This document shows positions 4,140 through 18,110 of a DNA stretch of 25,949 bases, one piece after another. The stretch's first letter is position 1, and every line of letters starts with the position of its first letter. The stretch covers positions 6,069 to 32,017 of the IMG/VR virus record IMGVR_UViG_3300037963_000553, one strand, 5' to 3'. Both the position numbers and the translations under genes were made by a program. The DNA comes from a virus. Under the pieces are notes generated by a model that saw only the letters and a list, made by a program, of their open reading frames with translations, was not told the origin of the DNA and did not search any database.

Positions 4140-4363
4140 GAATGACCTACCTCTCTGGGTATACCTATATCGGTAATACCAAATGATGTATTATATACTG
4201 TTAAACAATTGAAGCATTTTACGTGAGTAGTATCCATTTTTTCGGTACTCCACAATAATACTCCAGTTTTCTTTAGAGGATAGTAACAAAGCAGACAACG
4301 ATTATTTCTCGTTATCTCTTTTAACTTCCGCCAGTTTTTTGTGTTTGGATTCTTGAATTGCAC
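4136..4363 (-). CDS. Small zinc-ribbon protein
   Basis: This 75-residue protein has two CxxC knuckles (CLLC near 23-26 and CFNC near 50-53), a spacing typical of a single zinc ribbon, with a basic N-terminus. The start codon is GTG (4363-4361), preceded by AGGAG about 8 bases upstream, which supports this start despite the 62-base overlap with the end of the small-terminase gene. It ends in an ATGA overlap with the GGCT gene, so both are probably translated together. Its role is unknown; a nucleic-acid or protein-binding adaptor would fit. Confidence 0.65.
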   Translation of the reverse strand: MQFKNPNTKNWRKLKEITRNNRCLLCYYPLKKTGVLLWSTEKMDTTHVKCFNCLTVYNTSFGITDIGIPREVGHS

Positions 4364-5063
4364 CTAATTGCTCCTGTGTAAAACCTTGAAACAATGTAAC
4401 AGACTCTGTAGTCTTTTGTGTTTCCATCATTCCAGAAATTTTCATTAATGTTGTTATTGCTGTAATTTTATCTCTATCTGAAGAACCTCCTTTATCTATG
4501 ATATTTCTCATTTCTTCTAAAAGATAGGTAGGAGTAATCTCAGCTTCGCTCAAATATTTATCTATTTCTTCTCTAATCAATTTTTTTACCCTATCGGTTT
4601 TTAATAGTAATTTTGCTTGTGATTTAGCATAATCTTCATTTTTACTAGGAAATGCTTTCATATATGCTTCAACCACATCATCTCCTTTTGCAACGTATTT
4701 TCCAAAGAGAAATTCTTTTTCAGTTGCTTTTTCTCTTTCTTTCTTTCTAACAGATGGAGATTTGCCTTCTGTAGAGAACGTATGCATATTTGTTCTCATC
4801 TCTCCTTCCATCATTACTCTAGGACTACAAACATAAGAACCCATTATGGTTCTAATAAACGTAGTTTGCTTCTTCCTATCGTTTTTCTTCAATACGCCTA
4901 GGTGTAACACTTGACATACTTGACCATCATCGGTCAATACCCAATCTCCTTTATTAGAATGTCTCCAGTCTCTACATAGAGGTAAAGTGACATATTTGTC
5001 TCTAAACTCTTCAACACTCTCAAAAAGATAATGTGTTACACCTTTTACAACACGTTCCTTCAT
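4302..5063 (-). CDS. terS: Terminase small subunit with extra N-terminal domain
   Basis: Residues about 117-172 match the Terminase_2 type of small terminase: a helix-turn-helix in which EFLFGKYVAKGDDVVEAYMKA is followed by a SQAKLLL..DRVKKLIREE helix. A later helical part (195-215, DRDKITAITTLMKISG) is typical of the oligomerisation region. These proteins recognise the packaging site and load the large subunit. At 253 residues it is longer than many; residues 1-100 form an additional Cys- and Trp-containing domain I do not recognise. It sits upstream of the large terminase, separated only by the zinc and GGCT genes. No clear ribosome binding site precedes the ATG, so it may be coupled to the gene before it. 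Confidence 0.75.
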   Translation of the reverse strand: MKERVVKGVTHYLFESVEEFRDKYVTLPLCRDWRHSNKGDWVLTDDGQVCQVLHLGVLKKNDRKKQTTFIRTIMGSYVCSPRVMMEGEMRTNMHTFSTEGKSPSVRKKEREKATEKEFLFGKYVAKGDDVVEAYMKAFPSKNEDYAKSQAKLLLKTDRVKKLIREEIDKYLSEAEITPTYLLEEMRNIIDKGGSSDRDKITAITTLMKISGMMETQKTTESVTLFQGFTQEQLGAIQESKHKKLAEVKRDNEK

Positions 5064-8324: not shown

Positions 8325-8597
8325 ATGAAAATAATAGAAGTAGTAGTATATCACAGTAGCACACCTTGTTACGATTGTCATGAACCAGGATGTCATACTC
8401 ACGGATATTACACTCCTGACTACGATATTAGAAAAGTAATACTATCAATCTTGAACAAAAATCAGGATTGGGACCTTCAACAAATACAAGTGTGCGAAAT
8501 TACACTAAATGTACCTGAAAGAGATACTTTGAAAGATATAACTGACAAGTACATAAAATACCATGTTGATGAGGGTGAATATGAACTACGTGACTAA
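8325..8597 (+). CDS. Small Cys/His-rich protein
   Basis: I place the start at the ATG at 8325 because GAAAGGA lies 7 bases upstream. An in-frame ATG at 8277 would translate the hairpin and has no ribosome binding site. The 90-residue product has a Cys/His cluster near its N-terminus (CYDCHEPGCHTHGY, about 15-28), suggesting a bound zinc ion. A charged region follows and ends in an acidic tail. I recognise no family. It is last in the three-gene operon; a strong terminator follows 4 bases after the stop. Confidence 0.65.
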   Translation: MKIIEVVVYHSSTPCYDCHEPGCHTHGYYTPDYDIRKVILSILNKNQDWDLQQIQVCEITLNVPERDTLKDITDKYIKYHVDEGEYELRD

Positions 8598-8601
8598 AAC
8601 T

Positions 8602-8630
8602 GGGGCACCTTCGGGTGCCTCTTTTTTTTT
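8602..8630 (+). terminator. Rho-independent terminator
   Basis: GGGGCACC (8602-8609), a TTCG tetraloop and GGTGCCTC (8614-8621) form an 8-bp stem with one G-U pair, followed by nine T residues. This is a textbook intrinsic terminator with an extra-stable UUCG loop. It ends the 7713-8597 operon. Confidence 0.92.
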
Positions 8631-8964
8631 ATTTTACCAAAAACCTTGTGCCATAGCTAGACACGAGCCGTTGCTAGACACGAGCTATTCCCCCGCGACG
8701 CAAGCTAGATAGATATGACTGTATCTAGAGCTAGACCGTTATCCCTTCTTTTTTTTTTAAGACTACAACCCTTCCGACGGAAGCTAGATATATGGGACTG
8801 ACAAAAACCCCGCGACGGAACTTGCTAGTTTTAGTCTGATTATATTTGCTAGACAGCAGCCTCCCCGCGACGGAAACCCTAGATATATGTCGCGATAGTT
8901 TGGATACGACCCGATATGTGTTGTCCGTCTAGTAGAAATTTTGTAAATTATAGAGGTGGAGAGT
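8631..8964. repeat. Repeat-rich control region
   Basis: No gene is evident here. GCTAGACACGAG occurs at 8656-8667 and 8673-8684. A degenerate motif, (C)CCCGCGACGGAA followed closely by (G)CTAG and often ATATAT, occurs at 8691, 8771 (as CTTCCGACGGAAG), 8808 and 8863, with a last CCGACGGAA near 8984. A CTAGATA/TATCTAG hairpin lies at 8705-8728. Irregular spacing argues against CRISPR and favours protein-binding sites (iterons, operator or origin). Confidence 0.6.
8921..8949 (+). promoter_or_regulatory. Candidate promoter for the 8965-12842 operon
   Basis: TTGTCC (8921-8926) and TAAATT (8944-8949) are 17 bases apart, just downstream of the repeats, with the next gene starting at 8965. The -35 differs from the usual TTGAC, as may suit a promoter needing an activator bound at the repeats. 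Confidence 0.4.
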
Positions 8965-9462
8965 ATGCGTCGGATAGCCACCACCGACGGAAAGGACAAA
9001 GTTATGACGGAAACTATGATACAGCGACACAAATGTAAATGCTCCGACTGTGGGCATAGTCATTGGGTAGAGCGCGTCGTAGAGATGCAGACGCTTCCTG
9101 TGGGCGTCGAGATTAGTATCGTCCCAGATAGCGAAAGTGAAAGATGGGAGCTTACTATCGTCAATAATATACAGGGTACGACGGGTATGGTTGAGTGCGA
9201 CACAATGAAACAATGTCTATATCTCATAGAGCAATGTCGTAAAAACATAATGAAAGACGGGTACAGGTTCATAGTCGTATCACCTCGTAGTCGTTTTGAG
9301 ACACACAGTCGCGTAAACAGGTTAGAGTATAATCAGTTTATAGACGACACATTTAAGACTAAAAAGAAGAAGGACGACTGGTATAGCGACCTAATCCAGA
9401 AGGTTGGTCGCAGCTCAGTGCGTTCGTCTAACAAAGTAAACAGACTAGGCTACAAAAAGTAG
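8965..9462 (+). CDS. Putative zinc-binding protein, unknown function
   Basis: An ATG at 8965 has a strong GAGGTGG ribosome binding site. An in-frame ATG at 9004 has AAAGGA 7 bases upstream and is equally possible; the shared product is about 152 residues. From the 9004 start the N-terminus carries a compact Cys/His group (HKCKCSDCGHSHW), likely a zinc knuckle. The middle is mixed alpha/beta, and the C-terminus is strongly basic (KTKKKKDDW and a Ser/Arg/Lys-rich end), consistent with nucleic-acid binding. It is the first gene of the operon that contains the amidotransferase and amidoligase. I recognise no family. Confidence 0.65.
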   Translation: MRRIATTDGKDKVMTETMIQRHKCKCSDCGHSHWVERVVEMQTLPVGVEISIVPDSESERWELTIVNNIQGTTGMVECDTMKQCLYLIEQCRKNIMKDGYRFIVVSPRSRFETHSRVNRLEYNQFIDDTFKTKKKKDDWYSDLIQKVGRSSVRSSNKVNRLGYKK

Positions 9463-12845: not shown

Positions 12846-13051
12846 CGTCTGACTAGGTTGTGGACGGATTAGATAACTAGTCTGTCTACACTAGTCATTT
12901 CCGACTATGATTAGTCGTCTAAATTGACCTAGTGCTAGATTATTGCCAATGACATACGGCTAGACACAAGCCTATGGCTAGATAGTTGCCATTGGCTAGA
13001 TAAAAAAATACTTGACTTTTTATATTTTTATGAATAACTTGAAAAAATTTT
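12846..13051 (+). promoter_or_regulatory. Control region with GCTAG repeats and candidate promoter
   Basis: This non-coding stretch is dense in CTAG. GGCTAGACACAAGCC (12958-12972) matches the GCTAGACACGAGCC motif upstream of the 8965 operon. GGCTAGATA occurs at 12976-12984 and 12994-13002, with a related GCTAGAT at 12934. TTGCCAATG (12943-12951) and TTGCCATTGG (12986-12995) flank them. A promoter candidate, TTGACT (13012-13017), 17 bases, TAACTT (13035-13040), would start transcription near 13047. No terminator hairpin with a T-run is visible after the amidoligase gene. Confidence 0.5.
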
Positions 13052-13194: not shown

Positions 13195-13383
13195 ATGAAA
13201 GATACGACCATTAAAGTTCTTGTTCCAGTCACTCACGACGAAGAGACTGAGCTAGACGTATGGGATGTAGACTTTGCTTACAACGAGTTTGCTAATGCTA
13301 TCAAAGAGTTTGAAACTGACAATGATATGCGTTATGACGCTTGGAATGATAAGCAAAGAGATTATATGAATGACCAAAGATGA
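13195..13383 (+). CDS. Small acidic protein, unknown
   Basis: A 62-residue, strongly acidic protein (MKDTTIKVLVPVTHDEETEL start), with a beta-rich N-terminus and helical C-terminus. The ribosome binding site is weak (ATAGGTAA). It is the first gene behind the candidate structured leader and is joined to the next gene by an ATGA overlap. No family recognised. Confidence 0.6.
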   Translation: MKDTTIKVLVPVTHDEETELDVWDVDFAYNEFANAIKEFETDNDMRYDAWNDKQRDYMNDQR

Positions 13384-14118: not shown

Positions 14119-14344
14119 AGGTTATGAACAGTTTAAAAAAGTAGACGCAGAATTAGATAAACTACTTCTGTATCTAGAGAAATTAGAAGAAGATTACGCA
14201 AAAGCAATAAGCGACGTAGATGAAAACTTTAAGCAGTATAAAAGATATCAAAAAGGATATAATATATTATCTACTTATTTTGATTATTTACCTGATGATG
14301 AAAAAGAAGAAGTTGATAAAAAACTTATGAAACTTAACTTATAA
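14111..14344 (+). CDS. Small coiled-coil protein
   Basis: A 77-residue charged protein that is helical for nearly its full length with heptad spacing of Leu, Tyr and Ile (residues 8-50), predicting a coiled coil. GGGAGAG lies upstream of the ATG. It is the last gene of the chain from 13195; a short gap with a promoter for the next gene follows. No family recognised. Confidence 0.6.
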   Translation: MSKGYEQFKKVDAELDKLLLYLEKLEEDYAKAISDVDENFKQYKRYQKGYNILSTYFDYLPDDEKEEVDKKLMKLNL

Positions 14345-14360
14345 AGTTTTAAAGTTTTAT

Positions 14361-14390
14361 TTGACACAAGTAAGAATATTATGCTAGATT
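14361..14390 (+). promoter_or_regulatory. Promoter for a probably leaderless mRNA (ribbon-helix-helix gene)
   Basis: TTGACA (14361-14366), an 18-base spacer and TAGATT (14385-14390) end exactly 5 bases before the ATG at 14396. Transcription would start at or next to that ATG. No ribosome binding site exists upstream. The same geometry is seen at 17734-17763. Confidence 0.55.
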
Positions 14391-14395
14391 GCAAT

Positions 14396-14578
14396 ATGAA
14401 AGATAGATATCAAACCTCTTTTGTTGTAGACAAGAAACTTTGGATAAAGTTTAAGTCTAAAACATTAAAAGAAGGTGTATCAATTAAAGATAAATTACAT
14501 AGTTTGATGACAGACTATGTTAATAACAAGGAGACGCAGAATGCCCGCAATTGGTTTTCTTTACCCAGATGGAAGTAA
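14396..14578 (+). CDS. Ribbon-helix-helix transcription regulator
   Basis: The 60-residue product has the layout of a ribbon-helix-helix (Arc/MetJ/ParD-like) DNA-binding protein. A short strand (QTSFVVDK) is followed by helix A (LWIKFKSKTLKEG) and helix B (SIKDKLHSLMTDYVN). Such proteins act as dimers, reading DNA with the paired strands, and usually repress their own operon. I prefer the ATG at 14396 over one at 14381, because a promoter -10 ends 5 bases before it, implying a leaderless mRNA. The 3' end overlaps the nuclease gene by 38 bases. It may bind the GCTAG-rich repeats elsewhere in the window, but that is speculative. Confidence 0.65.
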   Translation: MKDRYQTSFVVDKKLWIKFKSKTLKEGVSIKDKLHSLMTDYVNNKETQNARNWFSLPRWK

Positions 14579-15422
14579 AGTATCATTTGAAGAAGTAAAG
14601 AAGGGTAACGTCGATATTGTTAAAATGGGTATGTCATTACCTACTTTAATTGAAATGTCGAAAGAAAGAGACCCTAATAGAAAGCCGTCTACTACTGAAC
14701 TGCTAGTTGGAACGTGCGAATCTTACCTTAAAAGAACAAAGGAATACTATGTTGACCCACAAGATAGAGCCTTTTCTTTAGCAGGTACAATGCACCACGC
14801 TAAACTAGAACAACACGAAGACGACAGACATATGTTAGAAGAAAAGCTAGAGGAGTTTGACATAACTGGTATAGCAGACTTGTATGACAAGGAGACTAAA
14901 ACATTGTTAGACTATAAGAATACTGGCTCTTACAAATGTGCTCAACTATTAGGGATGACATATAAACTAATTCCAGACCCGTCTGGAGCTAGATACAAGA
15001 CTAGTGGTAAGTGGGGAAAGAAAGGCTCCACAAAAATGATTAAAAAATGGTACCGCGATGAAGGTCTAGCAGACTTTGGAGACTGGGGATGGCAGGTAAA
15101 CTGGTATAGATATCTTTTAAACAAAGCTGGATACGACGTAGAACATATGTATATTCAGGTTACTTTAAGAGACGGAGGTCTAGCAGTATCGAGAGATAGA
15201 GGTTTAGACAAGCATATTTACCTGATTGAAGTACCTAAGTACGACGATGAACAATTAGAGTTTAAGTTTTTATCTTCTAGAGACGCACTTGTAAAAGCTC
15301 TAGATACTGGAAACTTACCTCAAAAATGTAATAAAGAACAAACCTGGGACGGTAGAAAATGTCAGTCATTTTGTGATGTTAGACATCTATGTCCTTACAA
15401 CAATGGGAGTATAAATGGGTAA
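14541..15422 (+). CDS. Cas4/RecB-like PD-(D/E)XK exonuclease with iron-sulfur cluster
   Basis: The ATG at 14541 has AAGGAG upstream, so I use it rather than an in-frame ATG at 14517. The 293-residue protein has nuclease motifs AGTMHHAKLE (81-90), GIAD (110-113, D113), LLDYK (122-126, D124 and K126) and QVNWYRYLL (185-193). Cysteines C59, C274, C278 and C284 are placed as in Cas4/AddB proteins, which hold a 4Fe-4S cluster. This type degrades DNA ends to make single strands. The annealing and SSB-like genes follow directly, so the three probably form a phage recombination set (exonuclease, annealase, SSB). Confidence 0.82.
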   Translation: MPAIGFLYPDGSKVSFEEVKKGNVDIVKMGMSLPTLIEMSKERDPNRKPSTTELLVGTCESYLKRTKEYYVDPQDRAFSLAGTMHHAKLEQHEDDRHMLEEKLEEFDITGIADLYDKETKTLLDYKNTGSYKCAQLLGMTYKLIPDPSGARYKTSGKWGKKGSTKMIKKWYRDEGLADFGDWGWQVNWYRYLLNKAGYDVEHMYIQVTLRDGGLAVSRDRGLDKHIYLIEVPKYDDEQLEFKFLSSRDALVKALDTGNLPQKCNKEQTWDGRKCQSFCDVRHLCPYNNGSING

Positions 15423-16047
15423 AATGTCTGAATTGGATATGTATCAATCTGATACGGAGATGATGGAGTTGCACGACCAAGCAATTCAAGACGACGTATT
15501 GATACGCAAGCACCAAAAGGTTTCAGAAGAACCTACTCCAAGCGACGTAGTTAAAAGTAGAAATGGTTTTGACTATGTAGATGAAGGATATATGCGTTGG
15601 CGACTAAACCAACATTATCCTATATGGTCTTGGGAAGTAATTAAATATGAAACACTTGGAGATAAAGCTATTGTAGTTCACGGACGTCTTAAAGTTATGG
15701 ACGAAGGTGTACCTCGTAGTTTTGACTCAGTTGCAGCACATAGAATAGCTGTATCTAGAAATGGCTCAGGGTATGTAGACTTAGGTAATGACCTAAAAGC
15801 TGCTAACTCAGATGCATTCAAAGTCGCAGTAAATAGACTATGTAATGTAGCAGACGACGTTTATCGCAAGCAATATATAGATAAGAGTCTTGGAGATGTC
15901 CAATTAAATAATCTTATGGATATAATTGCAGAGATGGACAATAAGGAAGAAGCAGACAAGGTGCATAGAGCACTTAGGTCTGGAATGATAAATCAAGACA
16001 ATTACGACAAAGTAATGTCTAAACTCACGGGAGTAAATAATGAGTAA
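15415..16047 (+). CDS. Rad52/Sak-like single-strand annealing protein
   Basis: This 210-residue protein has the pattern of Rad52/DdrA-type annealing proteins. YMRWRLNQHYPIWSWEVI (59-76) is followed by a beta-rich stretch GDKAIVVHGRLKV (82-94). The GNDLKAANSDAFKVAVNRLC (124-143) segment gives the conserved Asp-Ala-x-x-x-A-x-x-R-L helix. Residues 155-210 are a helical tail. Such proteins form rings that pair complementary single strands. GGGAG lies upstream of the ATG, which overlaps the nuclease stop. Its place between an exonuclease and an SSB-like protein supports the call, though sequence similarity is modest. Confidence 0.65.
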   Translation: MGKMSELDMYQSDTEMMELHDQAIQDDVLIRKHQKVSEEPTPSDVVKSRNGFDYVDEGYMRWRLNQHYPIWSWEVIKYETLGDKAIVVHGRLKVMDEGVPRSFDSVAAHRIAVSRNGSGYVDLGNDLKAANSDAFKVAVNRLCNVADDVYRKQYIDKSLGDVQLNNLMDIIAEMDNKEEADKVHRALRSGMINQDNYDKVMSKLTGVNNE

Positions 16048-16600
16048 TGTTACAGATGTATTAAACGACATAGATAACAATGTGGCTTATTATAATCCTT
16101 CAGAAGATACTGCAGGCAAAAAGTATGCCACTATTGAAGAAGGGACTTATGAGGCTACAGTCAGTAAACTGACAATTAAAAAAGATATTGTTGTTAAGAA
16201 TCAATACCTTAGCGATATCTTTGAAGCTACCTATAAATTAGACGATGATAATCATCCTGATTTAAAAGGTAGAGAAGTTAAGTCTAAAGGATACTTTAGG
16301 TTTAAGGCTCCTGATAAGACAAAATATCCTAAACTTGAAGACAATCAAGGAAATAATAAAGGATATATGATATTCGCAGAAGCTTGTGGATTTGAAATGC
16401 AGAAAGACGACCAAGGTAGATATTTATTACCTATGGTTATGGAGTCTGACATTGCAGGTAATCCTGTAAATATCAAGGTAGTCCACGATAAATGGACTGA
16501 CCAATCAGGAGAGCAAAGAGTAACACCGACTGCGGTTAACGTCTTTAAATCAAATAGAGAAGTTAGTAAGCCAGTCGCAGAAGACGAATTGCCGTTCTAA
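16040..16600 (+). CDS. SSB-like single-strand DNA-binding protein
   Basis: A 186-residue protein with a beta-rich core (about 28-160, including GTYEATVSKLTI and IFEATYKLD) consistent with an OB-fold, then a short linker and an acidic end finishing in DELPF. Bacterial SSBs end in the similar DDIPF, which docks partner proteins. It follows the annealing protein with overlap and precedes the helicase group, fitting a single-strand binding role. The fold is inferred from pattern only. The helicase in this window also ends in Pro-Phe. Confidence 0.6.
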   Translation: MSNVTDVLNDIDNNVAYYNPSEDTAGKKYATIEEGTYEATVSKLTIKKDIVVKNQYLSDIFEATYKLDDDNHPDLKGREVKSKGYFRFKAPDKTKYPKLEDNQGNNKGYMIFAEACGFEMQKDDQGRYLLPMVMESDIAGNPVNIKVVHDKWTDQSGEQRVTPTAVNVFKSNREVSKPVAEDELPF

Positions 16601-16833
16601 TGAAGTACTCTTTCACTCTTACAAAAGAAGAATCTATGGGACTAATAGAGATATTAGAACTATTCAGAAAAGATGGAGAAGACGAAGCTACTGTTGAATT
16701 AAGACATAATATAAAAACTCAGTTTCAGGCTCAATTTGACGAAATGGAAAAAACAGAGTCTGTTACTAAAGAAGATGTCTTAAAAAATGCATCGAACGTA
16801 ATGGGTCCTTCTTTCTGCGATACTTGCGACTAA
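16600..16833 (+). CDS. Small acidic protein, unknown
   Basis: A 77-residue acidic helical protein that starts in a TAATG overlap with the SSB-like gene. It ends in a CDTCD cysteine pair, perhaps half of a metal site formed by a dimer. The next gene starts in another TAATG. No family recognised. Confidence 0.6.
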   Translation: MKYSFTLTKEESMGLIEILELFRKDGEDEATVELRHNIKTQFQAQFDEMEKTESVTKEDVLKNASNVMGPSFCDTCD

Positions 16834-17081
16834 TGGACATTAGTAAATGGAATGCCATTATGAAGTCTTTCCAAGACCTTATGGGATACCAACCAGGTAT
16901 AACCGAGGTCTTGGTGACTAAAAGACTTAGCGCAATAGGATTCAAAGATATTGAAACAATAAGTGGACGGGAAGAGAAATACCTCGTCCACATCTTAAGA
17001 AAACGTTATAGGGAGATATTAGATGAACAAAAAAGAAAAGACTCTGCTAGAGTACATGGTAAAAAATCAGGGAATAACTGA
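16833..17081 (+). CDS. Small helical protein, unknown
   Basis: The ATG at 16833 forms a TAATG overlap, so it is preferred to a TTG at 16824. The 82-residue product is helical and ends in a very basic tail (KRKDSARVHGKKSG), which could contact nucleic acid. It overlaps the HTH gene by 59 bases. No family recognised. Confidence 0.6.
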   Translation: MDISKWNAIMKSFQDLMGYQPGITEVLVTKRLSAIGFKDIETISGREEKYLVHILRKRYREILDEQKRKDSARVHGKKSGNN

Positions 17082-17223
17082 AACTCAAGCGATAATATAT
17101 TTAGGAATATATCCTAGTAGATTAAAAAGAATGATAAATAACTTTCAGAGAAATGGTATGTTAATCACTGGAGATAGGAATTTTGTCGATTTTAGCTATC
17201 ATTTGACTAAAATTTACGCTTAA
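17023..17223 (+). CDS. Small helix-turn-helix protein
   Basis: A 66-residue protein carrying a helix-turn-helix at about 17-46 (GITETQAIIYLGI then LKRMINNFQRNGM). The order 'A-x-x-x-L-G-I ... I-x-x-L-x-x-x-G' is typical of small phage winged-helix proteins (HTH_39-like). GGGAG precedes the ATG within the previous gene. A likely transcription regulator, or an accessory factor for replication. Confidence 0.65.
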   Translation: MNKKEKTLLEYMVKNQGITETQAIIYLGIYPSRLKRMINNFQRNGMLITGDRNFVDFSYHLTKIYA

Positions 17224-17252
17224 TTTAGAATAACGCACGAGATTGCCCTTCT

Positions 17253-17339
17253 ATGGACGAAACGCATATTAGTCGATACTTATGTCGAAAATGTAATTAT
17301 AATCGCTTAGAGGGGCATTCTAGAGAGGAAAATTTTTGA
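17253..17339 (+). CDS. Possible 28-residue micro-protein (doubtful)
   Basis: An ATG at 17253 opens a 28-codon frame with a CRKC motif and ends in a TGA that overlaps the TTG start of the next gene by two bases. The overlap is of the kind used for coupling here, but no ribosome binding site precedes it. The stretch 17224-17335 otherwise shows no feature. Confidence 0.25.
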   Translation: MDETHISRYLCRKCNYNRLEGHSREENF

Positions 17340-17737
17340 AAAGACCAATTTTATACGAGAAAAGATTTAAACAACCAGTAATATTTGATGGATTGCAAGA
17401 TGGGCTTGTTTCGCCTACTGATATTGACTTCTGTTTTGAAGTCGGCAATAAATTTCTATTAATAGGAGACTGTAAGAAAGACGACGCTCCGTTTCCATTA
17501 GGGCAAAGACTAGTAATAGAAAGAATTGTCGATACCTGGAGAGCGACCAGGAAGATATCTTTAGGAGTTATTGCCACACATAGCACAAGCCCTGAGCAAT
17601 CAATAGTCCTTGCAAACACAGTAGTTACAAAAGTATACCACGACGGAGAGTGGAAAAAAACTTTTATGGTCTTTGACGATTTTGTAAGAAGGACTGCAAA
17701 AAGATTTGACATAGATAAGTTAAAAAATTTGAGTTGA
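17336..17737 (+). CDS. Putative PD-(D/E)XK-fold nuclease
   Basis: The start is TTG at 17336, preceded by GAGAGGA 6 bases upstream. The 133-residue protein has SPTDIDFCFEV (26-36) followed by a strand and the triad LLIGDCKK (41-48), giving the order D29/D31 then D45-x-K47 seen in the PD-(D/E)XK nuclease fold. The remainder is alternating strand and helix. The match is by motif order only, so it could be an inactive relative. It lies between an HTH gene and a second nuclease-like gene. Confidence 0.5.
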   Translation: MKRPILYEKRFKQPVIFDGLQDGLVSPTDIDFCFEVGNKFLLIGDCKKDDAPFPLGQRLVIERIVDTWRATRKISLGVIATHSTSPEQSIVLANTVVTKVYHDGEWKKTFMVFDDFVRRTAKRFDIDKLKNLS

Positions 17738-17763
17738 CTGAAAGAACAATAAATCACTATATT
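17734..17763 (+). promoter_or_regulatory. Promoter for a probably leaderless mRNA (resolvase-like gene)
   Basis: TTGACT (17734-17739), an 18-base spacer and TATATT (17758-17763) end 5 bases before the ATG at 17769. The only purine run (GAGAG) touches the ATG and is too close to act as a ribosome binding site, so translation from a leaderless mRNA is likely. It overlaps the end of the previous gene. Confidence 0.55.
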
Positions 17764-17768
17764 GAGAG

Positions 17769-18110
17769 ATGGCAAGTAAATCAAAAGCAAAAGGTAACCG
17801 ATTCGAAAAAGAATGTGTAGACATAGCAGAGTCTCACGGCTTCAATGCTAAAAGAGCTTGGGGAAGTGACGGACGAAGCCTAGGTATGTCTCCTGAGGTA
17901 GATTTAATTATAGACTACCTTCTAGACGAACAGACTGCTAGAACAATGAAGGTTCAATGCAAAGTCAGAAAGTCTATAGCTAGTTATCTTTTACCACCTG
18001 ACGACTGTGATATCACTCTTATTAAACAGGATAGAGGAGAGATATACGCAACAATTCGATATAAAGATTTATTAGAATTGATTCAACTTACTTTTCAATT
18101 AAGTAAATAG
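17769..18110 (+). CDS. Holliday-junction-resolvase-like endonuclease
   Basis: This 113-residue protein has the order of Hjc/RecU-type resolvases: a first acidic residue in NRFEKECVDIAESHGF (E13), then RAWGSDGRS (29-37), the EVDLII strand (43-48, D45) and VQCKVRKS (62-69, with Q63-x-K65 as the ExK-type motif). These enzymes cut four-way junctions or other branched DNA, which would help clear recombination intermediates before packaging. It is one of three nuclease-fold genes between 14.5 and 18.1 kb. It has its own promoter and no leader. Confidence 0.65.
   Translation: MASKSKAKGNRFEKECVDIAESHGFNAKRAWGSDGRSLGMSPEVDLIIDYLLDEQTARTMKVQCKVRKSIASYLLPPDDCDITLIKQDRGEIYATIRYKDLLELIQLTFQLSK

Follow-up and report, generated by a model that had tools for sequence, protein, structure and literature searches.

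Conserved promoter-to-start-codon spacing and probable leaderless expression of two genes in a clade of uncultivated phages

Two genes of an uncultivated phage, one encoding a ribbon-helix-helix (RHH) protein and the other a Holliday junction resolvase, are each preceded by a promoter whose −10 hexamer ends five bases before the ATG. From comparative sequence analysis we consider it very likely that both promoters start transcription at the A of this ATG and that translation of the RHH repressor and of the resolvase proceeds from leaderless mRNAs, with their output tied to their own promoters and with a direct repeat at the RHH promoter probably serving for autoregulation or as an UP element.

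The DNA analysed (termed the window) comprises 25,949 nucleotides, bases 6069–32017 of a 42,304-base virus record that, with its portal, terminase, exonuclease and DnaB-type helicase genes, represents a tailed phage. The annotated phage collection holds no nucleotide match to it and no protein match to its exonuclease; matches to the terminase and helicase lie below 60% identity and name no host. No relative was found when the exonuclease alignment was scanned against bacterial genomes, no tRNA genes occur in the contig pieces scanned, and Rfam gives no match in the window. On a reading of the sample series, the clade is apparently marine.

Geometry of the two sites

The features considered here, all on the + strand, are as follows.

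14342..14357, +, 16-bp direct repeat TAAAGTTTTAAAGTTT, two copies of the 8-bp unit TAAAGTTT in tandem, separated from the −35 by 3 bp; candidate operator of the RHH protein or UP element
14361..14366, +, −35 hexamer TTGACA of site 1; TTGAC in 28/29 relatives
14385..14390, +, −10 hexamer TAGATT of site 1; preceded by TG (extended −10)
14396..14578, +, predicted leaderless gene, without a Shine-Dalgarno (SD) sequence, for a 60-aa Arc/ParG-like RHH protein (family matches)
14541..15422, +, exonuclease gene directly downstream of the RHH gene (PHROG exonuclease, 1.3e-11; SD energy −8.0)
17734..17739, +, −35 hexamer TTGACT of site 2; its own TGA is the stop codon of the upstream gene (17336–17737)
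17758..17763, +, −10 hexamer TATATT of site 2 (from the sequence)
17769..18110, +, predicted leaderless gene for a 113-aa Hjc-like PD-(D/E)XK Holliday junction resolvase (PHROG, Pfam and structure-database matches)

The initial annotation had described two promoters of identical geometry at 14361 and 17734, and its description is exact. In site 1, TTGACA and TAGATT are separated by 18 bases and followed by GCAAT and the ATG at 14396; in site 2, TTGACT and TATATT are likewise separated by 18 bases and followed by GAGAG and the ATG at 17769. These are the sole matches to the exact pattern in the whole 42,304-base record. Among 300 dinucleotide-preserving shuffles of the window, which served as the null model, the exact pattern averaged 0.003 per window and a looser pattern (spacer 17–19, distance 5–6) 0.02 per window. 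A general promoter scan of the window, with 45 found against 42 expected, is uninformative alone; the two sites stand out because of the added constraint on distance to the ATG.

Neither start pairs with the anti-SD sequence, the duplex energies being +0.4 and +0.7 kcal/mol, in agreement with the earlier claim that both lack a ribosome binding site. The accompanying statement that almost all other genes have good ones was slightly generous: an energy of −4 or better is found for approximately 26 of the 37 other putative genes, either at the listed start or at an in-frame one nearby, and most of the remaining genes overlap the upstream gene or are doubtful. Folding of the 5′ region at both coding starts revealed only weak structure and was otherwise unremarkable. 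An alternative in-frame ATG at 14381 lies between the −35 and −10 of site 1, has no SD and is not conserved in relatives.

The assignment of the first gene as an RHH regulator is borne out by family searches, in which the RHH family matched the PHROG Arc-like repressor with a best E of 4.6e-06 and Pfam ParG with a best E of 0.00058. ParG was matched by 13 of 18 family members at E up to 0.5; the window protein alone gives a marginal match (0.067). The resolvase matches the PHROG RusA-like resolvase family (2.9e-06), Pfam Hjc (best 0.00026) and Hjc structures (best E 0.0014, 2wcz Hjc), and its invariant residues E13, D45, Q63 and K65 make up an acidic/QxK-like core of the Hjc type.

Conservation in related phages

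Checking the geometry in related phages, as the initial annotation had proposed, yielded the evidence that carries the leaderless reading. Among 33 related contigs read whole or nearly whole, 29 carry the RHH gene, and in all 29 the ATG is preceded, at a distance of 5 or 6 bases, by a TTG(A/C)NN...TANNNT promoter. These relatives form one clade with shared ancestry, so that allele counts here and below overstate independence. The promoter spacer is 18 bases in 28 of these contigs and 17 in one. Spacer bases vary while boxes and distances do not, and the RHH proteins fall to 58% identity with the window protein. Across 50 related records, the pattern gave approximately 75 matches versus 5 for a reversed control, and the distance from −10 to ATG peaks at 5 and 6.

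Two changes in the length of the RHH N-terminus act, in these alignments, as natural experiments on the promoter–ATG distance. In six contigs a Thr codon (ACA or ACT) stands in place of the usual Met codon and the gene begins at an ATG 9 bases further upstream (MINTK...); the −10 has shifted along with the start and sits 6 bases before the new ATG. Three other contigs have three extra codons following the start, again with a distance of 5 or 6. The other in-frame ATGs of the RHH gene are not conserved, and both the RHH and the resolvase proteins are conserved from their first residues.

The resolvase gene occurs with two kinds of upstream sequence. Eighteen distinct upstreams of the promoter type read TTGAC-N-18-TANATT-5-ATG, all with exactly 18 and 5, and include ten different 5-mers as discriminators; their SD energies are −3.1 kcal/mol or weaker. 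Resolvase upstreams without the promoter have SD energies of −4.8 to −9.8, mostly −7 to −10, the exceptions being three or four distant members with neither promoter nor SD. No allele has promoter and SD together. In SD-type relatives (e.g. L026–L028) the upstream gene has the same ending (...KLKNL-stop), after which comes GAGGACATT-ATG; the gap measures 8 bases in the SD type and 31 bases in the promoter type. Resolvases of both types align from Met-1, so that the SD-led alleles provide independent confirmation of the start codon. Mapped onto a helicase tree, the promoter type requires at least three changes, of which well-supported branches force only one.

The bases around the start codon point the same way. 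Every promoter-type allele starts with ATG, and T immediately precedes it in 28 of the 29 RHH contigs and in 17 of the 18 resolvase alleles; among 905 distinct SD-led ATG starts of these contigs, T takes this position in 34%. The remaining discriminator positions are variable. Bacterial transcription starts usually favour a T ahead of the initiating A, and an excess of T at −1 is therefore what would be expected if the A of the ATG is +1 (a −1T/+1A initiator). A caution applies to exact placement: at distance 5 the usual start, 7 bases past the −10, is the T of the ATG, so such a site relies on initiation 6 bases past the −10. Given the conserved promoter–ATG distance, the joint movement of start codon and promoter, the T-A initiator and the alternation of SD and promoter at the resolvase, we infer that transcripts start at the ATG, and the earlier claim of leaderless transcription of both genes thus has strong comparative support.

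Upstream of the RHH promoter, 27 of 29 RHH contigs carry TAAAGTTTTAAAGTTT with at most one mismatch and with exactly 3 bases between it and the −35; in most genomes there is no further copy within two mismatches (it usually occurs once per genome). A DNA-only scan of 2.9 million viral contigs for the repeat followed by three bases and TTGAC returned 31 contigs, of which 29 have the complete arrangement and the RHH protein; in the other two, the promoter and ATG lie near the end of the fetched piece. The repeat plus −35 pattern is absent from the bacterial genome collection. Contigs G022 and G026 (L160, L168–L169) carry in place of the direct repeat AAACTTTA, the reverse complement of the half-site. 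In these two contigs a reverse-complement copy is also present in the promoter spacer, which hints that a binding site has moved or flipped.

Short direct repeats near a promoter are typical RHH targets, and the repeat is probably bound by the RHH protein itself, giving autoregulation, or acts as an UP element. The window protein resembles the Arc/ParG repressors in sequence; unlike their typical targets, the candidate repeat lies upstream of the −35 and not over the promoter. With the ATG as +1, TAAAGTTTTAAAGTTT would cover about −54 to −39, a position compatible with an UP element or an activator no less than with a repressor, so that regulation of either sign may apply.

Alternative readings and other promoter-like sites

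The promoters could be real and yet serve the downstream operon of exonuclease, recombination and helicase genes, in which case their position next to the ATG would be incidental and the first gene would be translated little, or by coupling. The downstream genes have good SDs and are expected to be expressed from these promoters; the SD-led exonuclease gene (14541..15422) is probably co-transcribed from that of site 1. We nevertheless judge an operon-only role very improbable, since the distance is held while the length of the N-terminus changes, the base before the ATG shows constraint, loss of the resolvase SD is confined to alleles with the promoter, and the proteins are conserved from their first residues. 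It is very improbable that the transcripts instead carry short leaders of 1–6 bases. Discriminators of 5–6 bases, several of them containing purines, do allow some freedom of start site, but a start at the A is favoured by the T that precedes it in nearly all alleles; because no SD fits in such a leader, this variant would functionally still be leaderless. The chance that the sites are accidental similarities or coding-sequence artefacts is negligible, despite two other conserved look-alikes found in these genomes, because site 1 lies inside a 51-base intergenic gap (14345–14395), the spacer, −10 and discriminator of site 2 are all past the upstream stop with only the −35 overlapping the upstream gene, shuffled windows yield virtually no matches, and spacer bases vary while boxes and distances are fixed.

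Both look-alikes were rejected. TTGAC...TTAAATT-ATG, at distance 0–1 before a terminase-small-subunit-like gene, coincides with the end of the preceding gene (...DEKEEK-stop), and the boxes of TTGACATAG...TATTTT-6-GTG lie in a small conserved coding frame. Conserved coding sequence thus also yields look-alikes at starts, so geometry alone can mislead. The terminase-small-subunit-like gene of the window (4302–5063, minus strand) begins 7 bases past the stop of the gene before it; it lacks an SD, and its translation is probably coupled.

Several further sites and regions were observed. In the distant relatives G035–G038 (L183–L189, L196–L197), TTGACA-17-TATATT-6-ATG precedes a Cys-rich 65-aa protein (MKKYKKQDARTYCANW...), which is likely to be the product of a further leaderless gene. 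In the window, a promoter-like TTGACT-17-TAGAAT (17203–17231) lies at the end of a 66-aa HTH-like gene and is followed by 112 non-coding bases, which include a possible 28-codon Cys-containing ORF, before a TTG-started gene at 17336 (region 17203–17335). A non-coding, CTAG-rich stretch at 12846–13040, with GCTAGAT..TTGCC-like repeats, lies before the gene at 13195 and is possibly an origin or control region; the bin at 8500–9000 is also CTAG-rich (10 in 500 bases). A similar CTAG-rich block in G001, G003 and G048 ends in a TTGACT promoter-like site, and this third site precedes a short ORF that is seemingly unconserved in the window.

Proposed expression and relation to known systems

Each gene is embedded in a run of genes of the same direction, where readthrough RNA from upstream would present it without an SD. 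Because neither gene has a ribosome binding site, we infer that such RNA would yield little protein. A transcript begun at the ATG would load 70S ribosomes directly, as for lambda cI, and the protein would then appear only when its own promoter fires. The only recognisable site for the RHH protein in the genome would be the one at its own promoter, making it a self-contained regulator of itself and of the following exonuclease and recombination genes.

The anatomy of the two loci suggests that independence from readthrough operon mRNA is a simpler benefit, and one that fits better, than use when initiation is disturbed late in infection, as had been proposed initially. Leaderless initiation has been suggested to prevent translation of leaky readthrough from an upstream operon in a survey of bacterial chromosomes (PMC3160421). 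Infection by T7 leads to phosphorylation of initiation factors and S1, the effects of which on leaderless mRNAs are unstudied according to a review (PMC9031893).

To our knowledge, leaderless phage mRNAs are known mostly from a few temperate repressors. When lambda cI is transcribed from PRM, a regulator-bound sequence lies just upstream of the promoter, as the candidate repeat does at the RHH promoter. The comparison with cI drawn in the initial annotation is apt, in that the cI mRNA is a leaderless phage repressor mRNA (PMC9031893; also PMC3160421), as predicted here for the RHH gene. However, cI is a helix-turn-helix protein with a weak −35, whereas the gene described here encodes an Arc-like RHH protein, has a near-consensus −35 and lies inside a block of replication and recombination genes; no lysogeny genes were recognised among the genes examined. 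In phage PY54 the cI and cro mRNAs are both leaderless by 5′ RACE, starting at the AUG, and an A/T-rich UP-like element adjoins the cro promoter (PMC4488713), comparable to the candidate UP element at the RHH promoter. PY54 has a divergent lambda-like switch, whereas the two genes considered here are co-directional and one encodes a nuclease.

In bacteria, TA-led leaderless genes have a −10 box about 10–12 bp before the start and no SD, according to the chromosome survey (PMC3160421), and the −10 spacing found here supports the leaderless reading because it is exactly the sign by which those genes were recognised. The 171 leaderless starts mapped in Sinorhizobium meliloti are all AUG (PMC3616915). 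Alternation between SD-led and leaderless forms at one phage gene is not described in the part of the chromosome survey used (PMC3160421), and a limited literature search returned neither such an alternation nor, for an uncultivated phage clade, any Arc-like repressor or resolvase with a leaderless mRNA. Phage repressors of the leaderless kind have precedents; on the basis of that search, what is new is the alternation within a single gene and the spacing shared across the clade.

It seems to us an evenly balanced question whether the two genes form an operon-internal, 'transcription-gated' pair whose timing is separate from that of the surrounding operon, the resolvase being switched among the same neighbours between SD-led expression as part of the operon and leaderless expression from its own promoter, and the RHH gene being obligately leaderless with an autoregulatory repeat. 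The conservation of the spacing in dozens of relatives makes it very probable that this arrangement genuinely serves to tie translation to the genes' own promoters. The arrangement, which would extend leaderless expression across an uncultivated phage clade and to a nuclease gene, and which alternates with SD-led initiation, may offer a natural comparative system for asking when leaderless expression benefits an operon-internal gene and whether such a gene, having no ribosome binding site, is protected against being translated from readthrough RNA.
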